Source: Promicromonospora thailandica
GTDB lineage: Bacteria > Actinomycetota > Actinomycetes > Actinomycetales > Cellulomonadaceae
DNA: 64,000 nucleotides
Reading direction: 5' to 3'
Assembly (NCBI RefSeq): GCF_024171955.1
Contig: NZ_JAMTCS010000007.1
Location: 1 to 64,000 of the forward strand
Shown: positions 1,204 through 11,938 of the stretch, piece after piece
Layout of the letters: the number at the start of each line of letters is the position of its first letter
Numbering within the stretch: position 1 is the first letter of the stretch
The notes under the pieces: model-generated
Database searches by the model: none
Seen by the model: the letters and a program-made list of their open reading frames with translations, nothing else
Told to the model about the DNA's origin: nothing
Translations under genes and position numbers: made by a program

Positions 1204-1237
1204 AGCCCCTCACCTGGCGTCTGCCTGGTGAGGGGCT
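1204..1237 (-). terminator. Terminator left behind the displaced tRNA-Arg 3' end
   Basis: An 11-bp perfect stem (AGCCCCTCACC / GGTGAGGGGCT) with a 12-nt loop is followed on the minus strand by TTTCTTGTT. It lies just beyond the 43-bp remnant of the tRNA, so before integration it would have terminated tRNA-Arg. Confidence 0.7.
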
Positions 1238-1240
1238 GCT

Positions 1241-1283
1241 GTGCGCCCGAAGGGATTCGAACCCCCAACCTTCTGATCCGTAG
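1241..1283 (-). repeat. attL: remnant of tRNA-Arg 3' half (43-bp direct repeat)
   Basis: These 43 bases match 11865-11907 with a single difference (A at 1250, G at 11874), leaving a 33-bp perfect run. They correspond to the anticodon loop through the 3' end of tRNA-Arg(ACG). Sequence diverges immediately on the far side of position 1283. This is the classic footprint of a tyrosine-recombinase element inserted in a tRNA gene. Confidence 0.93.
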
Positions 1284-2663: not shown

Positions 2664-3464
2664 TCACGCGAGCGGGACGCACACGAGGGTCTTGTCGTCG
2701 TGGAGCTTCGCACGGGGCCAGCGTTGCCCGCCGGGGTCGGTGGACTCGGCTTCGTGGATGCGCTGGAGAACGTGGGCAGGGCCGTGCTGGCGGGCCTCGT
2801 CGTAGAGGTCATGCCAAGTCGTAGCTTCGGGGTGGCGTGCAGGGTCGACGCCGTCGCTTGCGAGCACGAGCGCTGAAACTCCAGCTCGGCCCTCGACGCT
2901 CGTTATCCCGTGGCGTGCGGCTTCCGGGTGGGCTCCGGCGATCCAGTAGCCTTCGGGCCGGTTGCATCGTCGGGCCTGCTCGGCTTGTAGGTCGAGCATT
3001 AGGGCACGGTGACCTTTGTCGTATCCGTGCCCCTCGGCCAGGCGCTTTCTATAGGCGGCCCGCTCGTTGACGGCGACGGCGTCCAGGCGGTCATCGGTGT
3101 GAACGGCCTCGGTGCCGTCCGCGTAGAAGATGACGCCGTAGCTGTCGCCCAGCATGTACGTCTCGACCGTGTCGTTCGACCAGCGGGCCAGAGCGACCGT
3201 GCTGGTGGGTGTGGTCTCGGCGGTTAGCCCGTGGGCGTCGCGGACTGCGCGTATCGCCTCCTCCACGGCACCCGCGAGGGAGCCGCCTTGCGGCACCGTC
3301 TTCTCGATGGCGTCCGCGAGCTGTTCCGCGTACCAACCTGGGTCGTGGGACCGGTCTCCGGCTACGGAGGTCGCCCCGTCGAGCACTGCGGCGAACCTCT
3401 CTCCAATGACGTAGCGGTCTTGGTTGCGGGATGCACCGGCAAGTGTTGCGGCGAGTGTCTTCAC
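2664..3464 (-). CDS. PP2C-family serine/threonine protein phosphatase (AICE cargo), 266 aa
   Basis: The PP2C metal-site motifs appear in order: NQDR (14-17), VLDGAT (about 27-32), TSTVALARW, GDSYGVI, LASDGVD and a late HDDKT motif. These aspartates bind the Mg/Mn pair that dephosphorylates pSer/pThr. I start it at GTG 3464, which overlaps the stop of the upstream HTH gene as GTGA and has GAAGG seven bases upstream; ATG 3485 is the alternative. The overlap implies translational coupling to the HTH protein, so the two probably act together. No membrane or sensor domain is present. Substrate unknown. Confidence 0.85.
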   Translation of the reverse strand: MKTLAATLAGASRNQDRYVIGERFAAVLDGATSVAGDRSHDPGWYAEQLADAIEKTVPQGGSLAGAVEEAIRAVRDAHGLTAETTPTSTVALARWSNDTVETYMLGDSYGVIFYADGTEAVHTDDRLDAVAVNERAAYRKRLAEGHGYDKGHRALMLDLQAEQARRCNRPEGYWIAGAHPEAARHGITSVEGRAGVSALVLASDGVDPARHPEATTWHDLYDEARQHGPAHVLQRIHEAESTDPGGQRWPRAKLHDDKTLVCVPLA

Positions 3465-4285
3465 GAGTGAACCTTCGGCCCCCATAGCGCTTCGGTTTCG
3501 GTCACAGTCAGGTCGTCGAAGGTGCTCGCAACGACGAGCGAGAACGGCCGTTCGTTCACGGCGTCGAACAGGTCATCGAGGTTGCGTCGGAGGTACTCCA
3601 CGGCACCGATCGACCCGAGCGCGTGTACGCCTGCAACGACGAGCACCTGCCGGTTGTTGCGGGTAAGGCGCGCCACGTAGGCGATGTCCCGCGTCTTGTC
3701 ACCGATGTCATCCCACGGCGAGACGAACACTTCACCGGTCTGCCGATCGGTGATGACCCATCGGCCCTCGCTGTTCGGCTCGAACGACAGATAAGGATCG
3801 GACTGGATCGCCTCGGCCGTGACGTGAGAAGACTTCGGGCCGCAGATCGCCACCGCATCGGCGGGCGGCTCCCATTCGCCGCTGGGCGGGATCTCAAAGG
3901 AGCGCGGCTGGTGTCCGAGGAGCACAAGCAGTTCTGCCATTGCATCCGCTGCTGCCTGGTCTTCGGCGGCGATGACGCCGAGCGGCCGTTCATCGAGTGC
4001 ACGCCGAGGAATTGCCACCGTGACCGGGCCGACGCCGAAGAACGCTCGGGCGACCGGAGGGGCGCTCTTTCGGATCTGTGTGATCCGGCCCTTGGTGATC
4101 CCGCTCGCCTTCGCGATATCTGTGTATGAGCGACCCTCAGCGTACGCGCGGTCGATGGCGGCCTTGCGGAGGCGAGCGAGCTCGGCGCTCCGGTTCTTGT
4201 AGACGTCGATGAGTTCGGTGGCGCGCTGCGCCTGACGGAGAGGGTCTTTCTCCGCCCTGGTCTGCTCGAACTCGTCGACGTTCAT
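3461..4285 (-). CDS. HTH protein with unrecognised C-terminal sensor-like domain (AICE cargo), 274 aa
   Basis: Residues about 50-72 (RSYTDIAKASGITKGRITQI) form a sigma-factor-like helix-turn-helix. A C-terminal region of about 195 residues follows, with segments such as VAICGPKSSHV, VFVSPWDD and VLVVAGVHALGS. These look like a Rossmann-type or nucleotide-binding fold, but I cannot name the family. The gene is divergent from the AICE block. Its start (ATG 4285) lies 8 nt after a TAAACT box (4294-4299), so it may be leaderless. Three 16-bp repeats in the shared promoter region are natural candidate binding sites. It is likely a regulator of element transfer or a sensor of a host signal, paired with the PP2C phosphatase. 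Confidence 0.75.
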   Translation of the reverse strand: MNVDEFEQTRAEKDPLRQAQRATELIDVYKNRSAELARLRKAAIDRAYAEGRSYTDIAKASGITKGRITQIRKSAPPVARAFFGVGPVTVAIPRRALDERPLGVIAAEDQAAADAMAELLVLLGHQPRSFEIPPSGEWEPPADAVAICGPKSSHVTAEAIQSDPYLSFEPNSEGRWVITDRQTGEVFVSPWDDIGDKTRDIAYVARLTRNNRQVLVVAGVHALGSIGAVEYLRRNLDDLFDAVNERPFSLVVASTFDDLTVTETEALWGPKVHS

Positions 4286-4294
4286 GGTTCCCAA

Positions 4295-4396
4295 GTTTAG
4301 ACCCCTTGACGGGAGGGTCCGCGAGGCCTATCTTCATGTTTAGGCCCCTCAACTTCGACGGGTTCACGCGACGGGTCGTTGTTTAGGCCCCTCAAC
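4295..4396. promoter_or_regulatory. Three 16-bp direct repeats with exact 43-bp periodicity (operator array)
   Basis: GTTTAGACCCCTTGAC (4295-4310), GTTTAGGCCCCTCAAC (4338-4353) and an identical copy at 4381-4396 begin exactly 43 bp apart, about four helical turns, so they face the same side of the DNA. Copy 1 overlaps the plus-strand -35 and the minus-strand -10. Copy 2 covers the plus-strand start. Copy 3 sits just before the pra ribosome binding site. This is the arrangement of an operator array controlling both directions. Confidence 0.8.
4306..4334 (+). promoter_or_regulatory. Promoter of the AICE transfer/replication block
   Basis: TTGACG (4306-4311), a 17-nt spacer and TATCTT (4329-4334) form a good sigma-A-type promoter reading towards pra. 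Its -35 is the end of the first 16-bp repeat, so occupancy of the array should block it. Confidence 0.7.
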
Positions 4397-4410
4397 ACCA
4401 GGAGACAACC

Positions 4411-4848
4411 ATGGCGATGCAGCGACGGTTTGCAGTGGCTCACGAGGACGTGTTCCCCAAGGGCGCGTTCCTGAAGGGCGAGGTCGAGGCGGTGCAGGAC
4501 TTCCAGGCCGACAAGCGCCCGGACGGGTCGCGGCCTCAGCAGCGGGACAAGGACACCGGCCTTCTGCTGTGGCAGGTGGTGGTCCTGGACGCGGACGAGG
4601 AGGCGGGCAAGAAGGACACCGCCGTCACGGTGAAGATCGCGGCCCCGCACCAGCCGGTCCCGCCGGAGAACAAGACGCCGTTCCCCTGGACGCCGATCGA
4701 GTTCGTGGGCCTGACGGCCCTGCCGTACGTGGACGACAACGGCACCCGGCCGCGCCTGGCGTGGTCGTACAAGGCCGACGACGTGTGCGAGCCCGGCAAG
4801 GCCGACGTGCCGACCTCGGCCCGCCCCGACGCCGGCAAGGCGGCCTGA
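4411..4848 (+). CDS. pra: Pra-type activator of AICE replication, integration and excision, 145 aa
   Basis: The sequence resembles the Pra family of pSAM2-like elements: an N-terminal FxVxxxxVFPKGAFLxGEV stretch, then RDKDTGLLLWQVVV, TVTVKIAA and a conserved LAWSYKADDV near the C-terminus. In pSAM2, Pra activates the rep-xis-int genes; a similar role here is inferred from family and position. It is the first gene after the operator array, with AGGAG (4400-4404) before ATG 4411. It lies 3 nt before the next ORF, starting a long coupled block. Confidence 0.8.
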   Translation: MAMQRRFAVAHEDVFPKGAFLKGEVEAVQDFQADKRPDGSRPQQRDKDTGLLLWQVVVLDADEEAGKKDTAVTVKIAAPHQPVPPENKTPFPWTPIEFVGLTALPYVDDNGTRPRLAWSYKADDVCEPGKADVPTSARPDAGKAA

Positions 4849-4851
4849 CCC

Positions 4852-5265
4852 ATGAGCACCAACAACGTGTCTTCGGGGGTGGCGGGGGCTTCGGTTTCCG
4901 CCCCCTCGACGGGGGAGGCTTTGCGGTTCGCGGCGTACGTCGCGGAACTGGTCGGGGATGACCGGATCGTGGCGGTCAACTGGATCACTGACTCGGTGCG
5001 GCCGTCGCGCAAGGAGCTGTACGTGACGGTCACCGACACCACGCACGGTGAAACGGTCGCGCACCTGCTCGGCCTCGGCCAGCGGCACGACCTGGAGCCG
5101 CATGCGAACGGCAGTCGCATCTCCCGGGAGGGCTTCTCGTCGTGGTCGGGCACGTCCGGCAACGTGCCGGTCTTCCTGTCCGCACCGCTGGCCCTGGGCG
5201 GGCTGCCGCACCGCCACTCGAACGACTGGGCCGAGGCTCCGCCGGCTGCGCGAAGGGCCGCGTGA
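4852..5265 (+). CDS. AICE hypothetical protein, 137 aa
   Basis: Second gene of the transfer block, directly after pra. The N-terminal 25 residues are Ser/Ala/Gly-rich. The middle contains a compact alpha/beta-looking segment (RFAAYVAELV, ELYVTVTD, ETVAHLLGLG). There are no membrane helices or recognised motifs. Its stop overlaps the next start as TGATG, implying coupled translation. Many AICEs carry such a small conserved ORF between pra and the translocase gene. Function unknown. Confidence 0.75.
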   Translation: MSTNNVSSGVAGASVSAPSTGEALRFAAYVAELVGDDRIVAVNWITDSVRPSRKELYVTVTDTTHGETVAHLLGLGQRHDLEPHANGSRISREGFSSWSGTSGNVPVFLSAPLALGGLPHRHSNDWAEAPPAARRAA

Positions 5266-5767: not shown

Positions 5768-6012
5768 TGTTCAACCGACGGATCACGAAGAAGGACTACC
5801 CCGACCTTCTCAACGAGATGGGTAACGACCTGGAGCACACCCAGGTCATGGTCACGCGGATGCAGGACTGGGTCACCGATACCGGTCTGGATCAGGACCT
5901 CGCTCAGGCCCTCGGTAGTGCCGCTGCGGCGGTCAAGGACGCGCACGACGCCGCCCATCACGCCTGGCGCCGGGTCAGCGACGAGATCGAGAAGGAGGGA
6001 CGGGACCGATGA
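5767..6012 (+). CDS. AICE small helical protein, 81 aa
   Basis: Start ATG 5767 overlaps the previous stop (TGATG); GTG 5764 one codon earlier is possible. The product has a basic N-terminus (FNRRITKKDY) and two long helices (LLNEMGNDLEHTQVMVTRMQ and AVKDAHDAAHHAWRRVSDEI). The GGGAGG-like purine run inside its end (AAGGAGGGAC) serves as ribosome binding site for traB, whose ATG overlaps this stop by 4 nt. Function unknown. Confidence 0.7.
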   Translation: MFNRRITKKDYPDLLNEMGNDLEHTQVMVTRMQDWVTDTGLDQDLAQALGSAAAAVKDAHDAAHHAWRRVSDEIEKEGRDR

Positions 6013-7658
6013 ACGCCACGACGGCGCCGAACACCAGCCTGCGTGCCCGCCTGGACGCCCGAGTCGCCTCGGCCCGCGCCACGGTCCGCGCCTCCACCGT
6101 GGGGCGTCCTGGGTGGTCCGGTAAGGCATGGCGGGTCGCCGCCCAGATCGCCTACCGGGACTGGATGTTCACCCGGGCCCTGACCGTGTGGGCTGCCCGG
6201 CACTGGGTGCCGACCGTGCTCGGCGTCGTCGTCTCGGTCGGCTGGTGGGGTGTTCTCACCCTGGCCGAGGTCCCCGGGGACCGGATCACCTGGCCGCTGT
6301 TGGCGCTGCTGGTGTTCTGGTCTCCGGGCCTGGCGGTCGCCCTGTTCGCGATGATCGCCCCGGCCCGGTACCGGCGTCGGGTCCACGCGCACAAGATGGC
6401 CGCGTACTGGCCCGAGGTCGCCCGCTCCTGCTCCCTCTACCGCACCGAGCCGGACGGCACCGTGACCGTGTCCCGGCTGCGGCACGTCTCGCACCAGCCC
6501 GGCGCGGTCGTGCTGCGGGTCGAGACGTTCCCCGGCCAGACCCCGGACACCCTGCACCGCGCCGCCCCCGCCGTCGCGTCGGCGTACCGGGCGCACGGGT
6601 TCGAAGTCATGCCGGTCAAGCCCGGTGTCCTGGACCTGGCCCTGTTCACGACGTACCGCATCGCCCCCGTGATGGCCCGGATGCCGGTGCCGGAGGGTGC
6701 CAACCCGGACGCCCTGCCGGTGGGCCTGGCTCGGACGGGTCATGTCGCGGAGATGGTCGTGCGCGGCCGTCACACCCTCGTCGTGGGTGCCACGGGGGCG
6801 GGTAAGGGGTCGGTGTTGTGGTCGGTCATCGGTGGTCTCGCCCCCGCGATCCACGACGGCACCGTGTCTGCGTGGGGTCTGGACCTCAAGGGCGGCGTCG
6901 AGCTGGAGATGGGCCGCGCCCTGTTCGGCCGCGTCGCCTACACCGCCGACGACGCCATCGAGGTCCTGCGGGCCCTGATGCGGGTGATCGACCGGCGCAA
7001 GGAGTCCATGCGCGGCGTCTCCCGTCTGCACGTGCCGACGTCGGCGGATCCGCTGCACGTCCTGATGATCGACGAACTGGCCGACCTGATGGCCTACAGC
7101 GAGTTCGACGTACGCCGCGAGGCTGATCGGCTGATGTCCAAGATCCTGACCCAGGGTCGCGCCCTCGGTGTCGTGGTCGTGGCCTGCGTACAAAACCCCA
7201 GGCAGGAGGCTGTCGGGCAGCGCAACCTCTACCCCCAGAAGATCGCCCTCCGCCTCGACTCCGATGTGGAGTCAGACATGGTGCTGGGCCCGGCCGCACT
7301 CCAGGCTCCGGCCCACGAGATCTCCCGCTCGGACCCGGGCACCGGGTACCTGGTTCGGGAGGACGGCGCACCGGTGATGGTCCGGTTCGCGTACTGGCCC
7401 GACGAACTCATCCGAGAGGTCGCCATCCGGTACGCCGCGCCGGCCTCCCACTCCGCCCCGGAGCCTCGGGATGGTGCCGACGCCGCCAATGCCTGGGCTG
7501 CTGCGGCTCGACGCACCACGAACGACAACGCGGGCAAGCCCACCAACGAGGACGCCCCCGCGCCTCGCACCCGCAAGCCCCGCGCACCGCGCAAGCCCCG
7601 CGCACCTCGTGCGCCCCGCCCGGCCGCTCCTGCGGCTGCTGACTCTGAGGAGGTCTGA
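6009..7658 (+). CDS. traB: TraB/FtsK-like conjugative DNA translocase, 549 aa
   Basis: Two hydrophobic segments (about 66-86 and 95-117) anchor the N-terminus. Walker A GATGAGKGS is at 260-268 and Walker B VLMIDELAD at 351-359, followed by the QGRALGVVVVACVQNP motif typical of FtsK-HerA motors. The C-terminal tail is a run of PRxxRKPRAPR repeats that could contact DNA. In pSAM2-type elements the single TraB hexamer pumps double-stranded DNA between cells, recognising short clt repeats; that mechanism is family knowledge. ATG 6009 overlaps the previous stop (ATGA). Length fits the family. Confidence 0.93.
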   Translation: MNATTAPNTSLRARLDARVASARATVRASTVGRPGWSGKAWRVAAQIAYRDWMFTRALTVWAARHWVPTVLGVVVSVGWWGVLTLAEVPGDRITWPLLALLVFWSPGLAVALFAMIAPARYRRRVHAHKMAAYWPEVARSCSLYRTEPDGTVTVSRLRHVSHQPGAVVLRVETFPGQTPDTLHRAAPAVASAYRAHGFEVMPVKPGVLDLALFTTYRIAPVMARMPVPEGANPDALPVGLARTGHVAEMVVRGRHTLVVGATGAGKGSVLWSVIGGLAPAIHDGTVSAWGLDLKGGVELEMGRALFGRVAYTADDAIEVLRALMRVIDRRKESMRGVSRLHVPTSADPLHVLMIDELADLMAYSEFDVRREADRLMSKILTQGRALGVVVVACVQNPRQEAVGQRNLYPQKIALRLDSDVESDMVLGPAALQAPAHEISRSDPGTGYLVREDGAPVMVRFAYWPDELIREVAIRYAAPASHSAPEPRDGADAANAWAAAARRTTNDNAGKPTNEDAPAPRTRKPRAPRKPRAPRAPRPAAPAAADSEEV

Positions 7659-7660
7659 TC

Positions 7661-8359
7661 ATGAACCGCACCACCCGCACCGCTGGGCCTGTGGCCCGGA
7701 TCGCGGCCGACTCCCGGCCCGTGCTCGTCTTCACCGTCGTCCTAACCCTCGCCGTCGCCCTCGCCTCGTTCGCGCTGTCCTTCGCCTCGCTGCGGGACGC
7801 TGCATTGTGGGGCCGGGTGCCCGAGGCCCTCGCGTTCCTCGTGCCCGTCGTCATCGATGCCTCGGTGCTCGTCTACGGCCTCGTGGCCCTGGTGCTCCGT
7901 GCTCGCGGACGCTCCAGCGCGTGGGCCTGGACCCTGATGTTCGGATTCACCGTCGTGTCCATCGGCGCCAACGCCGCCCACGCCTACGACGTCGGCCCCG
8001 AACTGCGCACCATCGTCGGCGTCGTCCTGGTCGCCCTCGCACCCCTGTCCGTGCTCACCTCGACCCACGCGCTCGCCTCCCTCGTGGTCGCAGACCGGCC
8101 CGCCGCCGAGACAAAGCCCGAGCCCGCGCCGGTCCCTGAGGTGGCCGAGGTCGCCCCGGAGCCGGTGGCCGTGATCGAGCCTGCTCCCGTCGTCGAGCCG
8201 GAGCCCGCGCCGGTCCCTGAGCCTGCGCCGGCCGAATCGCCCACCCCGGCGGCTGCTCCTGCGCCGGCTGCCCGTCGTCCTCGTCTGGGGCGGGTCCGTC
8301 CGATCACTCAGGATGCCCTGGACCTGCCCGGCCTGAACATGGCGAGGGCCGAAGCATGA
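7661..8359 (+). CDS. DUF2637-type membrane protein (AICE), 232 aa
   Basis: Four predicted transmembrane helices occupy roughly residues 20-145 (for example VLVFTVVLTLAVALASFALS and VVIDASVLVYGLVALVL), matching the DUF2637 family common on actinobacterial plasmids and AICEs. The C-terminal 85 residues are a proline/glutamate-rich tail with EPAPVPE repeats and end with a basic RRPRLGRVRP segment. It lies 2 nt after traB and is coupled by ATGA to the WhiB-like gene. A role in mating-pore or spread functions is plausible but inferred. Confidence 0.85.
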   Translation: MNRTTRTAGPVARIAADSRPVLVFTVVLTLAVALASFALSFASLRDAALWGRVPEALAFLVPVVIDASVLVYGLVALVLRARGRSSAWAWTLMFGFTVVSIGANAAHAYDVGPELRTIVGVVLVALAPLSVLTSTHALASLVVADRPAAETKPEPAPVPEVAEVAPEPVAVIEPAPVVEPEPAPVPEPAPAESPTPAAAPAPAARRPRLGRVRPITQDALDLPGLNMARAEA

Positions 8360-8751
8360 TCGCCACCGCCGACCAGATCCGCGACGCGCTCTGCGCCCGT
8401 GACGAGTACCGCGGCCTGCCGTGGATCAGTGAGACCACCTCGCCCGCCCAGCGTGCCGCCATGGCCCGTGTCTGCGCCTCCTGCCCCGTCCTGGCTACCT
8501 GCGCCGCTGAGGCCGCTACGACGCCCACCACGGCCGGGTTCTGGGCCGGGCAGGACCACACCGCCCGCGACTACCCCGTCCAGGGCGTCCTGGACCTCGA
8601 CCTGGGCGAGAAGGGTCGCCGCGAGGTACCTGCCGGTGAGGTCGCGGACCTCGGTGACGGGTGGGTCCTGGTCGACCCCCGGGAGTACCCCGAGCTCGAC
8701 GGCACGACCCGCGTGGGTGGCCTGCTGGCCAAGGTCCGGAACGCCGCATGA
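8356..8751 (+). CDS. WhiB-like iron-sulfur regulator encoded by the AICE, 131 aa
   Basis: Four cysteines at 13, 40, 43 and 49 give the Wbl spacing (C-x26-C-x2-C-x5-C) that ligates a 4Fe-4S cluster. They are followed by a FWAGQD turn in place of the usual GVWGG. The C-terminal half is acidic and lacks the usual basic tail, so it may not bind DNA by itself. It is coupled at both ends (ATGA with DUF2637 and with rep). Wbl proteins act through the sigma-A subunit; on an element it could alter host transcription. Confidence 0.85.
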   Translation: MIATADQIRDALCARDEYRGLPWISETTSPAQRAAMARVCASCPVLATCAAEAATTPTTAGFWAGQDHTARDYPVQGVLDLDLGEKGRREVPAGEVADLGDGWVLVDPREYPELDGTTRVGGLLAKVRNAA

Positions 8752-10313
8752 ACAGCGCACTGACGTTCTCCGGCTTCGGGGAGCACGCACCGTTGGAGGT
8801 CGGCCCGGGCGCTCTGGGGTTCGCTACCCAGTCCGCCCGTGGCCGCACCTTCCGCTCGGCCCTGGACGCGTTCGCGGACACCGCCGCGGCTGTCGGCTAC
8901 TGCTCCCACCCGATCCGCCTCAACGGGTCCTCCATGACCGTGGACACCACGACCGGTGAAGTCGTCAGCGAGTACCACTCGGCCGACGCCCCCATGGGGC
9001 AGCTCTACCGGCCATGCGGCAACCGGCGTGCCGACATCTGCCCGGCCTGCTCGCGCGTCTACGCCCGCGACACCTTCGCGATGATCCGATCCGGCCTCCT
9101 CGGCGGCAAGACCGTCCCCGAGACCGTGGCAGACGCCCCGCTCGTGTTCGCGACCCTGACCGCTCCCTCGTTCGGGCACGTGCACGGCATCCGCAAGAGG
9201 GATGGACACAAGACCGGCGGGACCTGCCGCCCCTTCGACCGGGCCAAGGTCTGCGAGCACGGCCGGTCCAAGTCCTGCATGCGCGTCCACACCGAAAACG
9301 AACCCATCGTTGGGGCTCCGCTGTGCTGGGACTGCTACGACTGGGACACCGCCATCGTCTGGCAGTGGCACGCCCCGGAGCTCTGGCGCCGGTTCACCAT
9401 CGCTCTGCGCCGCGCTCTGGCCGTGCACCTGGGCCTCAAGGACACCGAACTCAAGCACGCGCTCTCCGTGCAGTACGCCAAGGTCGCGGAGTACCAGGCG
9501 CGCGGGTCCGTCCACTTCCACGCCCTGATCCGCCTGGACGGTCCCGACGGTCCGGGGTCGATGGCTCCCGTGGACGGGGACACCCTGAAAGGCCTGATCG
9601 AGTCCGCCGCCCTCGGGGTGGAGTACGTAGCTGTTCCGGTCGATGGTGCCGACGTGCCGCGCAAACTGGCCTTCGGGGTCCAGGTTGATACGCGGACCGT
9701 GAGCACTGGCCTGCCGGGCAGCGTCGCCGACGAAGCACACTCCACCGACACCCTGAGCCCTGAGCAGGTCGCGGGGTATCTGGCGAAGTACGCGACCAAG
9801 TCCACCGACGTGGACCCGGCCGCACCTCGAGCTCACCTCTCGCGCCTGATCCGGCAGTGCCGTCGCCTGGCCGACCGCGCCGCCACCGCCTGCCGCCTGC
9901 CCGGGTACGAGCCGGAGGAGGACGAGGACGGGTGCGTGTGTGGGGAGTGCATCAACTCGCCGTACCGGCTGCTGGCGAAGTGGGCGCACATGCTCGGCTT
10001 CCGGGGCCACTTCTCGTCCAAGTCCCGCCGCTACTCCGTCACTCTCGGCCGCCTGCGCACTGCTCGTGCTCGGTTCGCGCGGCTGGCTGCTGAGGCGGAG
10101 CGGGCTGGGGAGCCGCTGGACGTGGCCGACCTGGAACGCCGGCTCCTGGCCGACGACGAGGAAACCACGCTCGTCGTCGAGGGCTCCTGGACCTACTCGG
10201 GGACCGGGTGGGCCAGCAACGGCGAGAAGGAGCTTGCTGAGGCTGCTGCAGCTCGTGCCCGTGAGTACGCGCAGTGGAAGGCAGGACAGAAGAATCCGGC
10301 CCGCGCGGCCTGA
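8748..10313 (+). CDS. repSA: RepSA-type rolling-circle replication initiator, 521 aa
   Basis: A zinc-ribbon-like region (CGNRRADICPACSRVY, about 88-103) precedes a HUH-like motif VHFHALIRLD with histidines 256 and 258, which bind the metal in rolling-circle initiators. A second cysteine-rich patch (CVCGECINSPYR) follows near residue 400. This layout is that of AICE/Streptomyces RepSA proteins, which nick the origin and start excised-form replication. Start ATG 8748 overlaps the WhiB-like stop (ATGA). The candidate catalytic tyrosine cannot be assigned with certainty. Confidence 0.9.
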   Translation: MNSALTFSGFGEHAPLEVGPGALGFATQSARGRTFRSALDAFADTAAAVGYCSHPIRLNGSSMTVDTTTGEVVSEYHSADAPMGQLYRPCGNRRADICPACSRVYARDTFAMIRSGLLGGKTVPETVADAPLVFATLTAPSFGHVHGIRKRDGHKTGGTCRPFDRAKVCEHGRSKSCMRVHTENEPIVGAPLCWDCYDWDTAIVWQWHAPELWRRFTIALRRALAVHLGLKDTELKHALSVQYAKVAEYQARGSVHFHALIRLDGPDGPGSMAPVDGDTLKGLIESAALGVEYVAVPVDGADVPRKLAFGVQVDTRTVSTGLPGSVADEAHSTDTLSPEQVAGYLAKYATKSTDVDPAAPRAHLSRLIRQCRRLADRAATACRLPGYEPEEDEDGCVCGECINSPYRLLAKWAHMLGFRGHFSSKSRRYSVTLGRLRTARARFARLAAEAERAGEPLDVADLERRLLADDEETTLVVEGSWTYSGTGWASNGEKELAEAAAARAREYAQWKAGQKNPARAA

Positions 10314-10347: not shown

Positions 10348-10545
10348 ATGAGCCAGAACGACAAGATCCTGACGCAGGCCGAGGTGGCCGCGATTCTCCG
10401 TGTGCCGGAGAGCACCCTGCAAGACCTCGCCCGGCGTGGGCACCGATCGATCCCGAAGGCATGGAAGGTCGGTCGTGCCTGGCGCTGGCTCGCCTCCGAC
10501 GTGGACGCCTTCATTGCCTCGCGCGGTCAGCAGGTGGCGGCATGA
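10348..10545 (+). CDS. xis: Excisionase-like MerR-type HTH protein, 65 aa
   Basis: A winged-HTH of the excisionase/MerR type is seen: LTQAEVAAILRVPESTLQDL followed by AWKVGRAWRWLASDVDAFI. The protein has the length and position of AICE Xis, immediately before the integrase. GGAAGGGG stands upstream of ATG 10348, and the stop overlaps the integrase ATG (ATGA). Xis directs Int towards excision; the subterminal repeats at 1380 and 11781 are candidate sites. Confidence 0.88.
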   Translation: MSQNDKILTQAEVAAILRVPESTLQDLARRGHRSIPKAWKVGRAWRWLASDVDAFIASRGQQVAA

Positions 10546-11768
10546 GCGTCACGAAGCGTGTCTATGAGTACACCGACAAGGACGGCGTGATGCGAACCCG
10601 TGAGGTCTGGCGGGCTCGGGTCTGGACGTACCCGCCCCACGGTCCGCGTAGGGAGATCGAGGATGAGTTCACGACCTGGAAGGAGGCCAAGAAGTGGGAG
10701 GGGGAACAGCGCGCCAAGGCTCGCGGGCGGAACGTCGACCTGGAGCGCACGACCCTTGCGGCTTCGGGTCTGTGGGAGCGGGCTGAGCCGGTCCTGCGTC
10801 GTCGGCTGGCTCCGCGCACGTTCGGCTACTACCGCGAGGGCTGGAACGACCGGGTGCTCAAGACCTTCGGCAACATGAAGGTGGGCGCTATCTCCGTGGG
10901 CGACGTCGAGCGGGCACAGGCTGAGTGGGCACGGACAGGCAGCGTGCATGTGGCTCGGCAGGCTCGCTACGCCTTGTCGGCGGTGCTGCGGATCGCGGTC
11001 CGGGATGGCCTGCTCCCGGCGAACCCTGCTCGGTCGGCGGAGTCGTCCAAGGCGGAGAAGCGTAAGCGGCAGGAGCGCAAGGTTGGAATGACGCTCACCC
11101 CGGCGCAGCTCTCGACGCTGGTCGACGCCATCCGGGACCTGCCGCAGGGTGGCCGGTACGCGGTCATGGTCGATCTGATGGGTTCGGCCGGTCTCCGGTA
11201 TGGGGAGGCGGCTGCACTCCAGGTGGGTGACCTCGATCTGGCCCGGGGTGTGATGACGGTGCAGCGCAGCGTCTCGGAGATGACCAAGGACGACGCGGGC
11301 GACCTGGCGCCGGGGTACTGGCGTGAGGGCAACCTGGTGTGGGGTCCGCCCAAGGGCGGCAAGAACCGAGTCGTGCCGGTCCCCAAGCACCTCGTAGAGC
11401 CACTGCGTGACCTGACACTGGGTCAGCGCCGTACGGCTCAGGTTTTCCGGTCTGAGCGCACCGGGTACGTCATCCGGGGCAACGTGCTCAAGACCAAGAT
11501 GGCTACGGAGACGATGACCACGGAGGGCGCGAAGATGGTGCACGGCTGGGGGCCGTTCGTGGCAAGCCTGGGCTTCGACGGGATGCGGGTGCACGATCTG
11601 CGGGCGACGGCGGCGACGAACTACCTGAGCGCTGGGGTTCCTCCGCACGTCGTGCGGGACATCCTCGGGCACGAGGACATCAAGGTCACCAACCTCTACG
11701 CACGGGCCCACGATGACGCGCTGAGCCTGGCTGCTGCTGCGCTGAGTGCCTACTCGGGGCGGGCGTGA
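10542..11768 (+). CDS. int: Tyrosine site-specific integrase of the AICE, 408 aa
   Basis: The catalytic set is complete: R219 (GLRYGEA), a lysine in the beta-hairpin region (271 or 274), H351 and R354 (HDLRATAAT), H377 (GHEDI) and nucleophile Y386 (TNLYARAH). The N-terminal third contains an arm-binding-like domain and a SAM-like core-binding domain (about 70-165). Start ATG 10542 is coupled to xis. The gene ends about 95 bp from attR inside tRNA-Arg, the usual position for AICE integrases targeting tRNA genes. Confidence 0.95.
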   Translation: MSVTKRVYEYTDKDGVMRTREVWRARVWTYPPHGPRREIEDEFTTWKEAKKWEGEQRAKARGRNVDLERTTLAASGLWERAEPVLRRRLAPRTFGYYREGWNDRVLKTFGNMKVGAISVGDVERAQAEWARTGSVHVARQARYALSAVLRIAVRDGLLPANPARSAESSKAEKRKRQERKVGMTLTPAQLSTLVDAIRDLPQGGRYAVMVDLMGSAGLRYGEAAALQVGDLDLARGVMTVQRSVSEMTKDDAGDLAPGYWREGNLVWGPPKGGKNRVVPVPKHLVEPLRDLTLGQRRTAQVFRSERTGYVIRGNVLKTKMATETMTTEGAKMVHGWGPFVASLGFDGMRVHDLRATAATNYLSAGVPPHVVRDILGHEDIKVTNLYARAHDDALSLAAAALSAYSGRA

Positions 11769-11826: not shown

Positions 11827-11861
11827 GGCTCCTCACCCGGCTTTTCGCCTGATGAGGAGCC
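11827..11861 (-). terminator. Element-borne terminator for tRNA-Arg
   Basis: GGCTCCTCA (11827-11835) pairs with TGAGGAGCC (11853-11861), with an inner GGC-TTTT-GCC-like step, followed on the minus strand by CTTTCTG. It replaces the terminator left at 1204-1237, so the restored tRNA gene still ends properly. Confidence 0.7.
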
Positions 11862-11864
11862 ACT

Positions 11865-11907
11865 GTGCGCCCGGAGGGATTCGAACCCCCAACCTTCTGA
11901 TCCGTAG
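11865..11907 (-). repeat. attR within intact tRNA-Arg
   Basis: 43-bp partner of attL (one mismatch). It covers the anticodon loop to the 3' end of the tRNA, so integration preserves a complete tRNA gene. Confidence 0.93.
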
Positions 11908-11938
11908 TCAGATGCTCTATCCGTTGAGCTACGGGCGC
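11866..11938 (-). tRNA. tRNA-Arg(ACG)
   Basis: The 73-nt minus-strand sequence folds as a tRNA: acceptor GCGCCCG/CGGGCGC with discriminator A, T-arm GGTTCGAATCC-type, and anticodon stem TCTGA/TCAGA enclosing loop CTACGGA with anticodon ACG. No CCA is encoded. It is the integration site of the AICE, whose right end supplies the 3' half. Confidence 0.96.

Follow-up and report, generated by a model that had tools for sequence, protein, structure and literature searches.

AICEs and small plasmids carry genes between antibiotic-producing actinobacteria. In pSAM2-type AICEs, KorSA is reported to repress both pra and its own gene (PMC8584621). SCO3932 leaves two footprints between its own gene and a pra homologue, one of them over the start on the pra side, and metabolite genes are reported among the targets that it activates (PMC8584621). 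The AICE repressor given a target in these sources is KorSA, of the GntR type; they also note XRE-type genes close to pra (PMC8584621, PMC3218068). KorA of plasmid RK2 binds GTTTAGCTAAAC (PMC2680271), with R48 contacting G1, G49 lying against T3, Q53 reaching positions 4-6 and T47 acting via water (PMC4889941; positions renumbered here along the half-site). Among the matches listed in the open-licence literature, as judged from titles and the starts of abstracts, no paper describing the repressor family or operator reported below was found.

The left part of our window, i.e. the whole 64-kb stretch of DNA that was analysed, is a 10.6-kb AICE in a tRNA-Arg gene (Table 1). It carries the integrase, the att repeats in a tRNA gene, the RepSA initiator and the FtsK/TraB translocase of a pSAM2-like AICE, and also codes for a DUF2637 protein and a WhiB-like protein. 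PHROG 733, an excisionase family by its label, is a further match of the DUF2637 protein (window 7661-8359; E 1.8e-19), even though a separate small excisionase-like gene precedes the integrase. The pra-like P0001 has no family match in Pfam, NCBIfam or PHROGs. It lies divergently from the gene of an HTH protein, P0006, whose nearest named relative, from Promicromonospora sp. AC04, is 92% identical.

Between the HTH gene and pra stand three copies of a repeat, O1, O2 and O3, which start at 4295, 4338 and 4381 and thus follow one another in steps of 43 bp, as a previous sequence-only reading had stated. That reading spoke of one 16-bp repeat. This is accurate for O2 and O3, which are identical over 17 nt (TGTTTAGGCCCCTCAAC), and less so for O1 (GTTTAGACCCCTTGAC), which matches them at 13 of 16 positions, three differences that the quoted consensus conceals. 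Each copy is an imperfect 16-bp dyad, GTTTAG-N4-CTmAAC; measured against GTTTAG-N4-CTAAAC, O2 and O3 fit at 11 of 12 positions and O1 at 10 of 12. With up to three mismatches, the exact 16-mer occurs in the window only as O1-O3 (shuffle mean 0.17; 0 of 100 shuffles reach three). The dyad GTTNAGGNNCCTNAAC with up to two mismatches gives three sites in the window, as many as 1 of 100 shuffles reaches, and GTTTAGN4CTAAAC with up to three mismatches returns O1-O3 again, a number that 19 of 100 shuffles reach. Because the loose dyad is this common in shuffles, the strength of the case lies in sequence identity, place and conservation. In the 5.38-Mb genome, the strict dyad GTTNAGGNNCCTNAAC is found at 4338 and 4381 only, and searching for GTTTAGN4CTMAAC with one mismatch adds a single place genome-wide, on contig 10 (C10:47439). 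Very probably, these repeats are dimer operators of the divergently encoded HTH protein, which would be an autoregulated repressor silencing pra and itself.

Table 1. Features of the AICE and of the region between the HTH gene and pra (window coordinates).
Feature	Position	Strand	Remarks
Putative attL, 61-nt direct repeat	1223..1283		92% identical to attR
PP2C-like phosphatase gene P0002	2664..3485	-	start overlaps HTH gene end; homologue in 46/54 design loci
HTH repressor gene P0006 (putative), 274 aa	3461..4285	-	N-terminal sigma-region-4/KorA-like HTH and conserved C-terminal domain of ~190 aa; ATG 8 nt past TAAACT
Inferred HTH-gene -10 hexamer TAAACT	4294..4299	-	O1 left half plus conserved A
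Candidate operator O1, GTTTAGACCCCTTGAC	4295..4310	+	right half with pra -35, left half with putative HTH-gene -10
Predicted pra promoter TTGACG-17 bp-TATCTT	4306..4334	+	consensus scan; equal geometry in relatives
Candidate operator O2, GTTTAGGCCCCTCAAC	4338..4353	+	starts 3 bp past pra -10, spans expected start ~4341
Candidate operator O3, identical to O2	4381..4396	+	pra leader, 3 bp before Shine-Dalgarno AGGAG (4400-4404)
pra-like gene P0001, 145 aa	4411..4848	+	named from position and by the sequence-only reading
TraB-type FtsK/SpoIIIE translocase	6009..7658	+	Pfam
RepSA replication initiator, pSAM2 family	8661..10313	+	E 7.5e-150
Small excisionase-like gene	10348..10545	+	position and size only
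Tyrosine integrase	10542..11768	+	Pfam
Putative attR	11847..11907		in tRNA-Arg(acg) 11865-11938; 92% identical to attL

Searches of 221 genomes from the family and 396 from the order found relatives of the HTH protein in 17 and 7 of them, respectively (own genome included); further relatives occur in 24 plasmid records and in 113 of 394 genomes of the class, many of the latter matching in the HTH part only; the phages and viral contigs searched yielded none. From these, 54 design loci were assembled (15 of 20 family loci, four of the order's new loci, 10 of 24 plasmid loci and 25 of 30 class loci), a chosen part of the matches in which many class-level matches have no locus and near copies such as L005/L006 count separately; partial, very weak or duplicate loci were omitted (L003, L018-L021, L024, L029, L040, L066-L069). 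Residue patterns in the recognition helix, set after some sites had already been seen, divide the design loci into 19 of type [TS][KR]GR[IV][TS]Q, to which the window belongs, 18 R[GA]RIHQ, two RGRIFQ, three of a Streptomyces plasmid type and 12 others.

In the 19 [TS][KR]GR[IV][TS]Q loci, 45 sites matching at 10 or more of 12 positions fall into the 5,118 bp upstream of the HTH genes and none into 64,935 bp elsewhere. The box type differs by helix: GTTTAG-type scores exceed GTCTAG-type ones in 17 of these 19 loci (one tie, one without a site), while the reverse holds for 16 of the 18 R[GA]RIHQ loci (two ties). Both RGRIFQ loci (L047, L048) lean towards GTCTAG, all three Streptomyces plasmid-type loci are of the GTTTAG type, and none of the 12 design loci with other helices has a site of either type. 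A de novo dyad search over 4096 hexamers and 11 spacers (0-10) returned GTTTAG with spacer 4 as the single best dyad in 8 of the 19 loci, and GTCTAG with spacer 4 as best or tied-best in 12 of the 18. The sequence-only reading passes the comparison with related AICEs that it had itself proposed: near and remote relatives alike retain the repeats at matching positions.

Several observations on individual relatives may be added. A perfect GTCTAG-N4-CTAGAC box is present in 12 of 14 RIHQ-type loci (L044-L046, L049-L051, L053-L060; not L049 and L057). Four relatives with other helices (L017, L023, L030, L037) show, by eye, different repeated boxes (GTTCAn..GTTGAC; GTTAAC with G runs), which are perhaps further operator codes. 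At L022/L024 (G183:C1:159095-159909), the HTH copy is matched in two frames, pointing to a frameshift or stop, and the pra-like frame beside it has, by eye, an early stop; this is probably a decaying element.

The relation between helix and half-site was then scored on new loci by a script written beforehand, with slightly widened helix patterns (I, V or L; K or R). Of 56 loci fetched, four lacked the N-terminus and were dropped, leaving 52; part of them stem from one match set, which gave loci for 30 of its 38 matches. The two families of these loci had already supplied three design loci, so that they are new elements rather than unrelated ones; a third family, represented by 13 genomes, yielded two HTH matches, and the design set had included both. 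Among 33 new helix-matched loci, 29 are GTTTAG-type, one is GTCTAG-type (L106) and three have no site, whereas all four new RIHQ loci are GTCTAG-type; the remaining 15, with other helices, comprise five GTTTAG-type loci and ten without a site. All three boxes of L086, L090 and L091 are of the GTCTAG type, with a 43/43 spacing in L090.

Pooled over both sets, helix-matched loci divide into 46 GTTTAG-type and one GTCTAG-type, and RIHQ loci into none and 20 (five and two, respectively, being tied or siteless). With one representative per 70% identity, the counts are 17 to 1 and 0 to 6 (four without a site, one tie). The corresponding Fisher P values, 3.6e-16 pooled and 5.2e-5 for the representatives, are naive, as the tree requires just two changes each of helix and of box type, making the swap nearly one evolutionary event, and in the sole independent pair on supported branches both members have the same box type. 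Boxes and HTH protein thus travel and change together by clade. We gave up the narrower idea of His69 as the residue that sets the base, given that the sole independent pair is alike in box type and that RIFQ proteins also lean towards GTCTAG. Also given up was a joint change of spacer length in every copy of an element: many elements mix 16- and 17-bp copies. Four loci (L013, L025, L109, L110) have 17-bp copies throughout.

The recognition helix of P0006, T64-K65-G66-R67-I68-T69-Q70, links this code to KorA. Aligning the AICE family with KorA by hhalign (E 1.9e-4 for a single comparison, probability 47%) places T64-K65-G66-x-x-T69-Q70 on KorA T47-R48-G49-x-x-S52-Q53, so that the base-reading residues of KorA recur as T64, K65 (a conservative exchange), G66 and Q70. 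The inverted-repeat GTTTAG half-site of the KorA type is present too, with a spacer of 4-5 instead of 0. By Pfam, P0006 scores 15.6 bits against KORA (PF16509), below the gathering cut-off of 26.7, and is therefore not filed as a KorA. A PDB search with the family profile listed a repeat protein first (8vd6, 7.5e-6), followed by the KORA-domain chains 7bbq/7bca (0.003-0.006), ParB and, more weakly, sigma factors. The full-length AlphaFold model was unusable (pLDDT 40.6), and a Foldseek search with a single-sequence model of the 84-aa HTH part (pLDDT 78.5) gave no match at E<=0.001 and one at E 7.5. Judged by helix and half-site, the AICE HTH protein would read its bases in the manner of KorA: the KorA half-site is once more paired with a KorA-like helix, here with 4-5 bp between half-sites, which places these 10-11 bp from each other. 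As the binder of the boxes, the HTH protein is well supported indirectly.

Neither Pfam nor NCBIfam recognises a GntR domain in P0006 up to E 0.1, and Pfam has no match for the C-terminal ~190 aa, the end at which KorA has its dimerisation and KorB-contact domain. In this C-terminal domain (window 3464-4033, residues 85-274), P150, D163, W176, S189, D200, G219, H221, G224 and S249 are invariant among 26 sequences, and it is possibly a sensor or enzyme-like domain. Of the two regions that would mark a sigma-70 factor, 2 and 4, only region 4 gives matches, weak and below the cut-offs of Pfam and NCBIfam, and the sigma model is covered at positions 87-157 of 165 only. Nevertheless, 17 of the 24 plasmid relatives (L031, L034, L035 and L036 among them) are annotated as 'sigma-70 family RNA polymerase sigma factor'. 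With the query matching region 4 weakly, this label is doubtful and a probable misannotation.

The promoters tie the boxes to both genes. A consensus scan found one pra promoter (shuffle mean 0.0, sd 0.2), and it is the mismatches in the right half of O1 (TTGAC) that make its -35, TTGACG. On the other strand, the left half of O1 supplies TAAACT, which ends 8 nt before the HTH-gene ATG; the repressor mRNA may accordingly lack a leader. No minus-strand promoter for the HTH gene was found by consensus scan of the window, implying that its -35 is weak or absent. O1 would probably serve as operator, as pra -35 and as -10 of the HTH gene. The sequence-only reading had placed the repeats over the promoter, start site and ribosome-binding region of pra and over the HTH-gene -10. 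Its first point stands, with the -35 inside O1 and O2 over the expected start, an arrangement conserved in relatives. The ribosome-binding site has to be taken out, as O3 ends at 4396 and only abuts AGGAG. The HTH-gene -10 is backed by a conserved -10-like hexamer and weakened by the result of the scan on that strand.

This hexamer can be followed through the relatives. The left half is GTTTAG in all 17 O1 copies found among the 19 helix-matched design loci, and an A precedes O1 in 17 of 17 cases as opposed to 7 of 31 for O2 and O3. A larger set, with the KGR[IVL][TS]Q helix type and a strict O1, comprises 41 loci, of which 39 have the A and 37 an in-frame start codon at a distance of 5-9 nt past the hexamer; in three RIHQ loci examined, neither feature occurs (0/3 each). 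The retention of both indicates that the -10-like hexamer built on O1, and probably the leaderless state of the repressor mRNA, is conserved in the KGR[IVL][TS]Q-type class. Several RIHQ relatives have 23-26 nt with GGAGG before the HTH-gene start, and both leadered and leaderless forms of the switch seem to exist.

Spacing was compared in 44 loci, i.e. the 41 of 52 helix-matched loci that have a strict O1 (11 do not) plus three of 22 RIHQ loci. Of these, 34 (31 helix-matched, three RIHQ) entered the count of triples, 10 being omitted for want of a -10 or third box. The O1-O2 step is 41-45 bp in 33 of the 34 and the O2-O3 step 41-46 bp in 30, with 43 bp the commonest value for each (13 loci). 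O2 begins 1-3 bp from the pra -10 in 33 of 34 loci, meaning that part of the 43-bp step is promoter geometry, and the O1-O2 distance mostly follows promoter length. O2-O3, fixed by no promoter element, still clusters near four helical turns. Misfits are L025 (56/26) within the count and L013 (52/57) and L092 (53/22) among the omitted loci. Exact helical phasing at 43 bp as a strict rule is hence rejected: the identical steps emphasised by the sequence-only reading are real in the window and typical of relatives, not obligatory, and its placing of all copies on one DNA face is plausible but loose. The bidirectional switch it saw fares similarly, gaining from the repeats, the pra overlap and the conserved hexamer in O1 and losing from the lack of a minus-strand promoter in the scan and from the variable step.

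From these elements, a mechanism can be proposed. The KorA-like recognition helix would read each GTTTAG half-site in the major groove, and with half-sites 10 bp apart, centre to centre, both helices of a dimer would approach from the same face. Occupied O1 would hide the pra -35 together with the repressor-gene -10, so that one binding event could shut both promoters, a form of negative autoregulation. O2 would block the pra start site, O3 would add a further block in the leader, and a spacing near four helical turns would favour cooperation between operators. The integrated element would thereby be kept quiet. Once the repressor lost its activity, pra would be released, and with it replication, excision and transfer; the inducing signal would possibly arrive via the neighbouring PP2C-like protein.

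The alternative that survives best, and is still improbable, has another protein, either Pra or a host factor, bind the repeats, with the HTH protein acting at other places. The gene across from the HTH gene is that of Pra, described as an activator in pSAM2 (PMC3218068). Yet in four loci (L011, L012, L014, L041) boxes are present although the flank across from the HTH gene, some 1.5 kb, holds no match to the pra of the window; half-site type follows the HTH clade; and helix and half-site match those of KorA, all of which argues against a Pra or host binder. The host genome, moreover, has no further strict site, unlike what a host regulator with a regulon would show. No support was found for Pra as the binder of the boxes.

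A little less probable again is an HTH protein that acts as a sigma-like activator or alternative sigma factor, with the boxes as its promoter elements. The annotation of the 17 plasmid relatives, the weak region 4 matches and the overlap of boxes with a -35 speak for it. However, the match is confined to the end of the sigma model, and beyond it the protein consists of a conserved domain that matches no sigma family. An ordinary TTGAC-17-TAnnnT promoter is present, and boxes lie over the start and leader, where an activator would be in the way. ArdK, a sigma-like HTH protein over its own -35, is described as a repressor (PMC9723621). A dose-dependent dual action like that reported for pLS20 (PMC4207663) is conceivable, and the GntR-type SCO3932 is itself reported to activate other targets (PMC8584621).

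We see very little likelihood that the repeats act in RNA, through structure in the leader, or that they are iterons for replication or arm sites for recombination. Iterons may consist of direct repeats, and O2 and O3 do lie in the predicted pra leader; this leader, however, folds no better than shuffles (z 0.28), a search of positions 4000-4900 against Rfam gave nothing up to E 1, O1 precedes the pra start site, and the sites retain their place relative to promoter elements, far from RepSA, integrase and att. Chance, or a recent duplication inherited without function, would account for the identity of O2 and O3 and for the frequency of the loose dyad in shuffles, and can practically be set aside given the exact 16-mer (three copies in none of 100 shuffles), boxes kept across several actinobacterial families despite differing sequence between copies, and the prediction on new loci.

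Returning to the autoregulated repressor, its PP2C-like neighbour deserves a closer look. By tblastn (E<=1e-4), 46 of the 54 design loci include a homologue of P0002. Pfam assigns three plasmid homologues to PP2C_2, one of which shares 32% identity with P0002; P0002 itself has no PP2C match up to E 0.1. In Streptomyces plasmids, homologues are annotated 'integrase' or 'UTRA domain-containing protein' (L031 4860-5696, L034 4856-5728, L035 4857-6188). Phospho-control through this protein is a guess. Tentatively, and with more doubt than confidence, the locus can be seen as a widespread immunity module of actinobacterial AICEs and plasmids, in which a KorA-like repressor encoded by a leaderless mRNA works with a PP2C partner, a single 16-bp box combines the operator with the -35 of the transfer operon and the -10 of the repressor gene, (de)phosphorylation by the PP2C protein gates release, and specificity differs by clade (GTTTAG versus GTCTAG). 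If so, clade specificity would settle between which elements in one host repression can occur.

For this repressor family, the findings provide an operator code that can be read from sequence alone and that predicts binding specificity, cross-immunity between elements and residues to mutate; they also suggest that the name 'sigma-70 factor' of the plasmid relatives is wrong. Compared with described systems, the AICE studied here resembles KorSA and SCO3932, as reported, in the proposed target of repression, pra plus the repressor's own gene. Those two are GntR proteins, whereas here a KorA/sigma4-like HTH with a C-terminal domain lacking a Pfam match would act through another operator sequence, and through three boxes, one of which also includes a -35 and a putative -10. 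KorA (TrfB) of the IncP-1 plasmids RK2/RP4 has exactly the same half-site, GTTTAG, reads it with similar residues (T, R/K, G, Q) and is described as an autorepressor of plasmid functions, like the repressor proposed here; its reported operator (GTTTAGCTAAAC) has no spacer and is straddled by two domains, whereas our half-sites are 4-5 bp apart. ArdK of R388, a KorA-family HTH resembling sigma region 4, likewise has operators over its own -35, but is described as reading direct repeats as an asymmetric dimer (PMC9723621), while the boxes here are dyads. RcoLS20 of the Bacillus plasmid pLS20, finally, offers the parallel of overlapping divergent repressor and conjugation promoters with more than one operator; that element is unrelated, and a DNA loop between two operators has been shown for it (PMC4207663), where the present switch would have three boxes within 102 bp.
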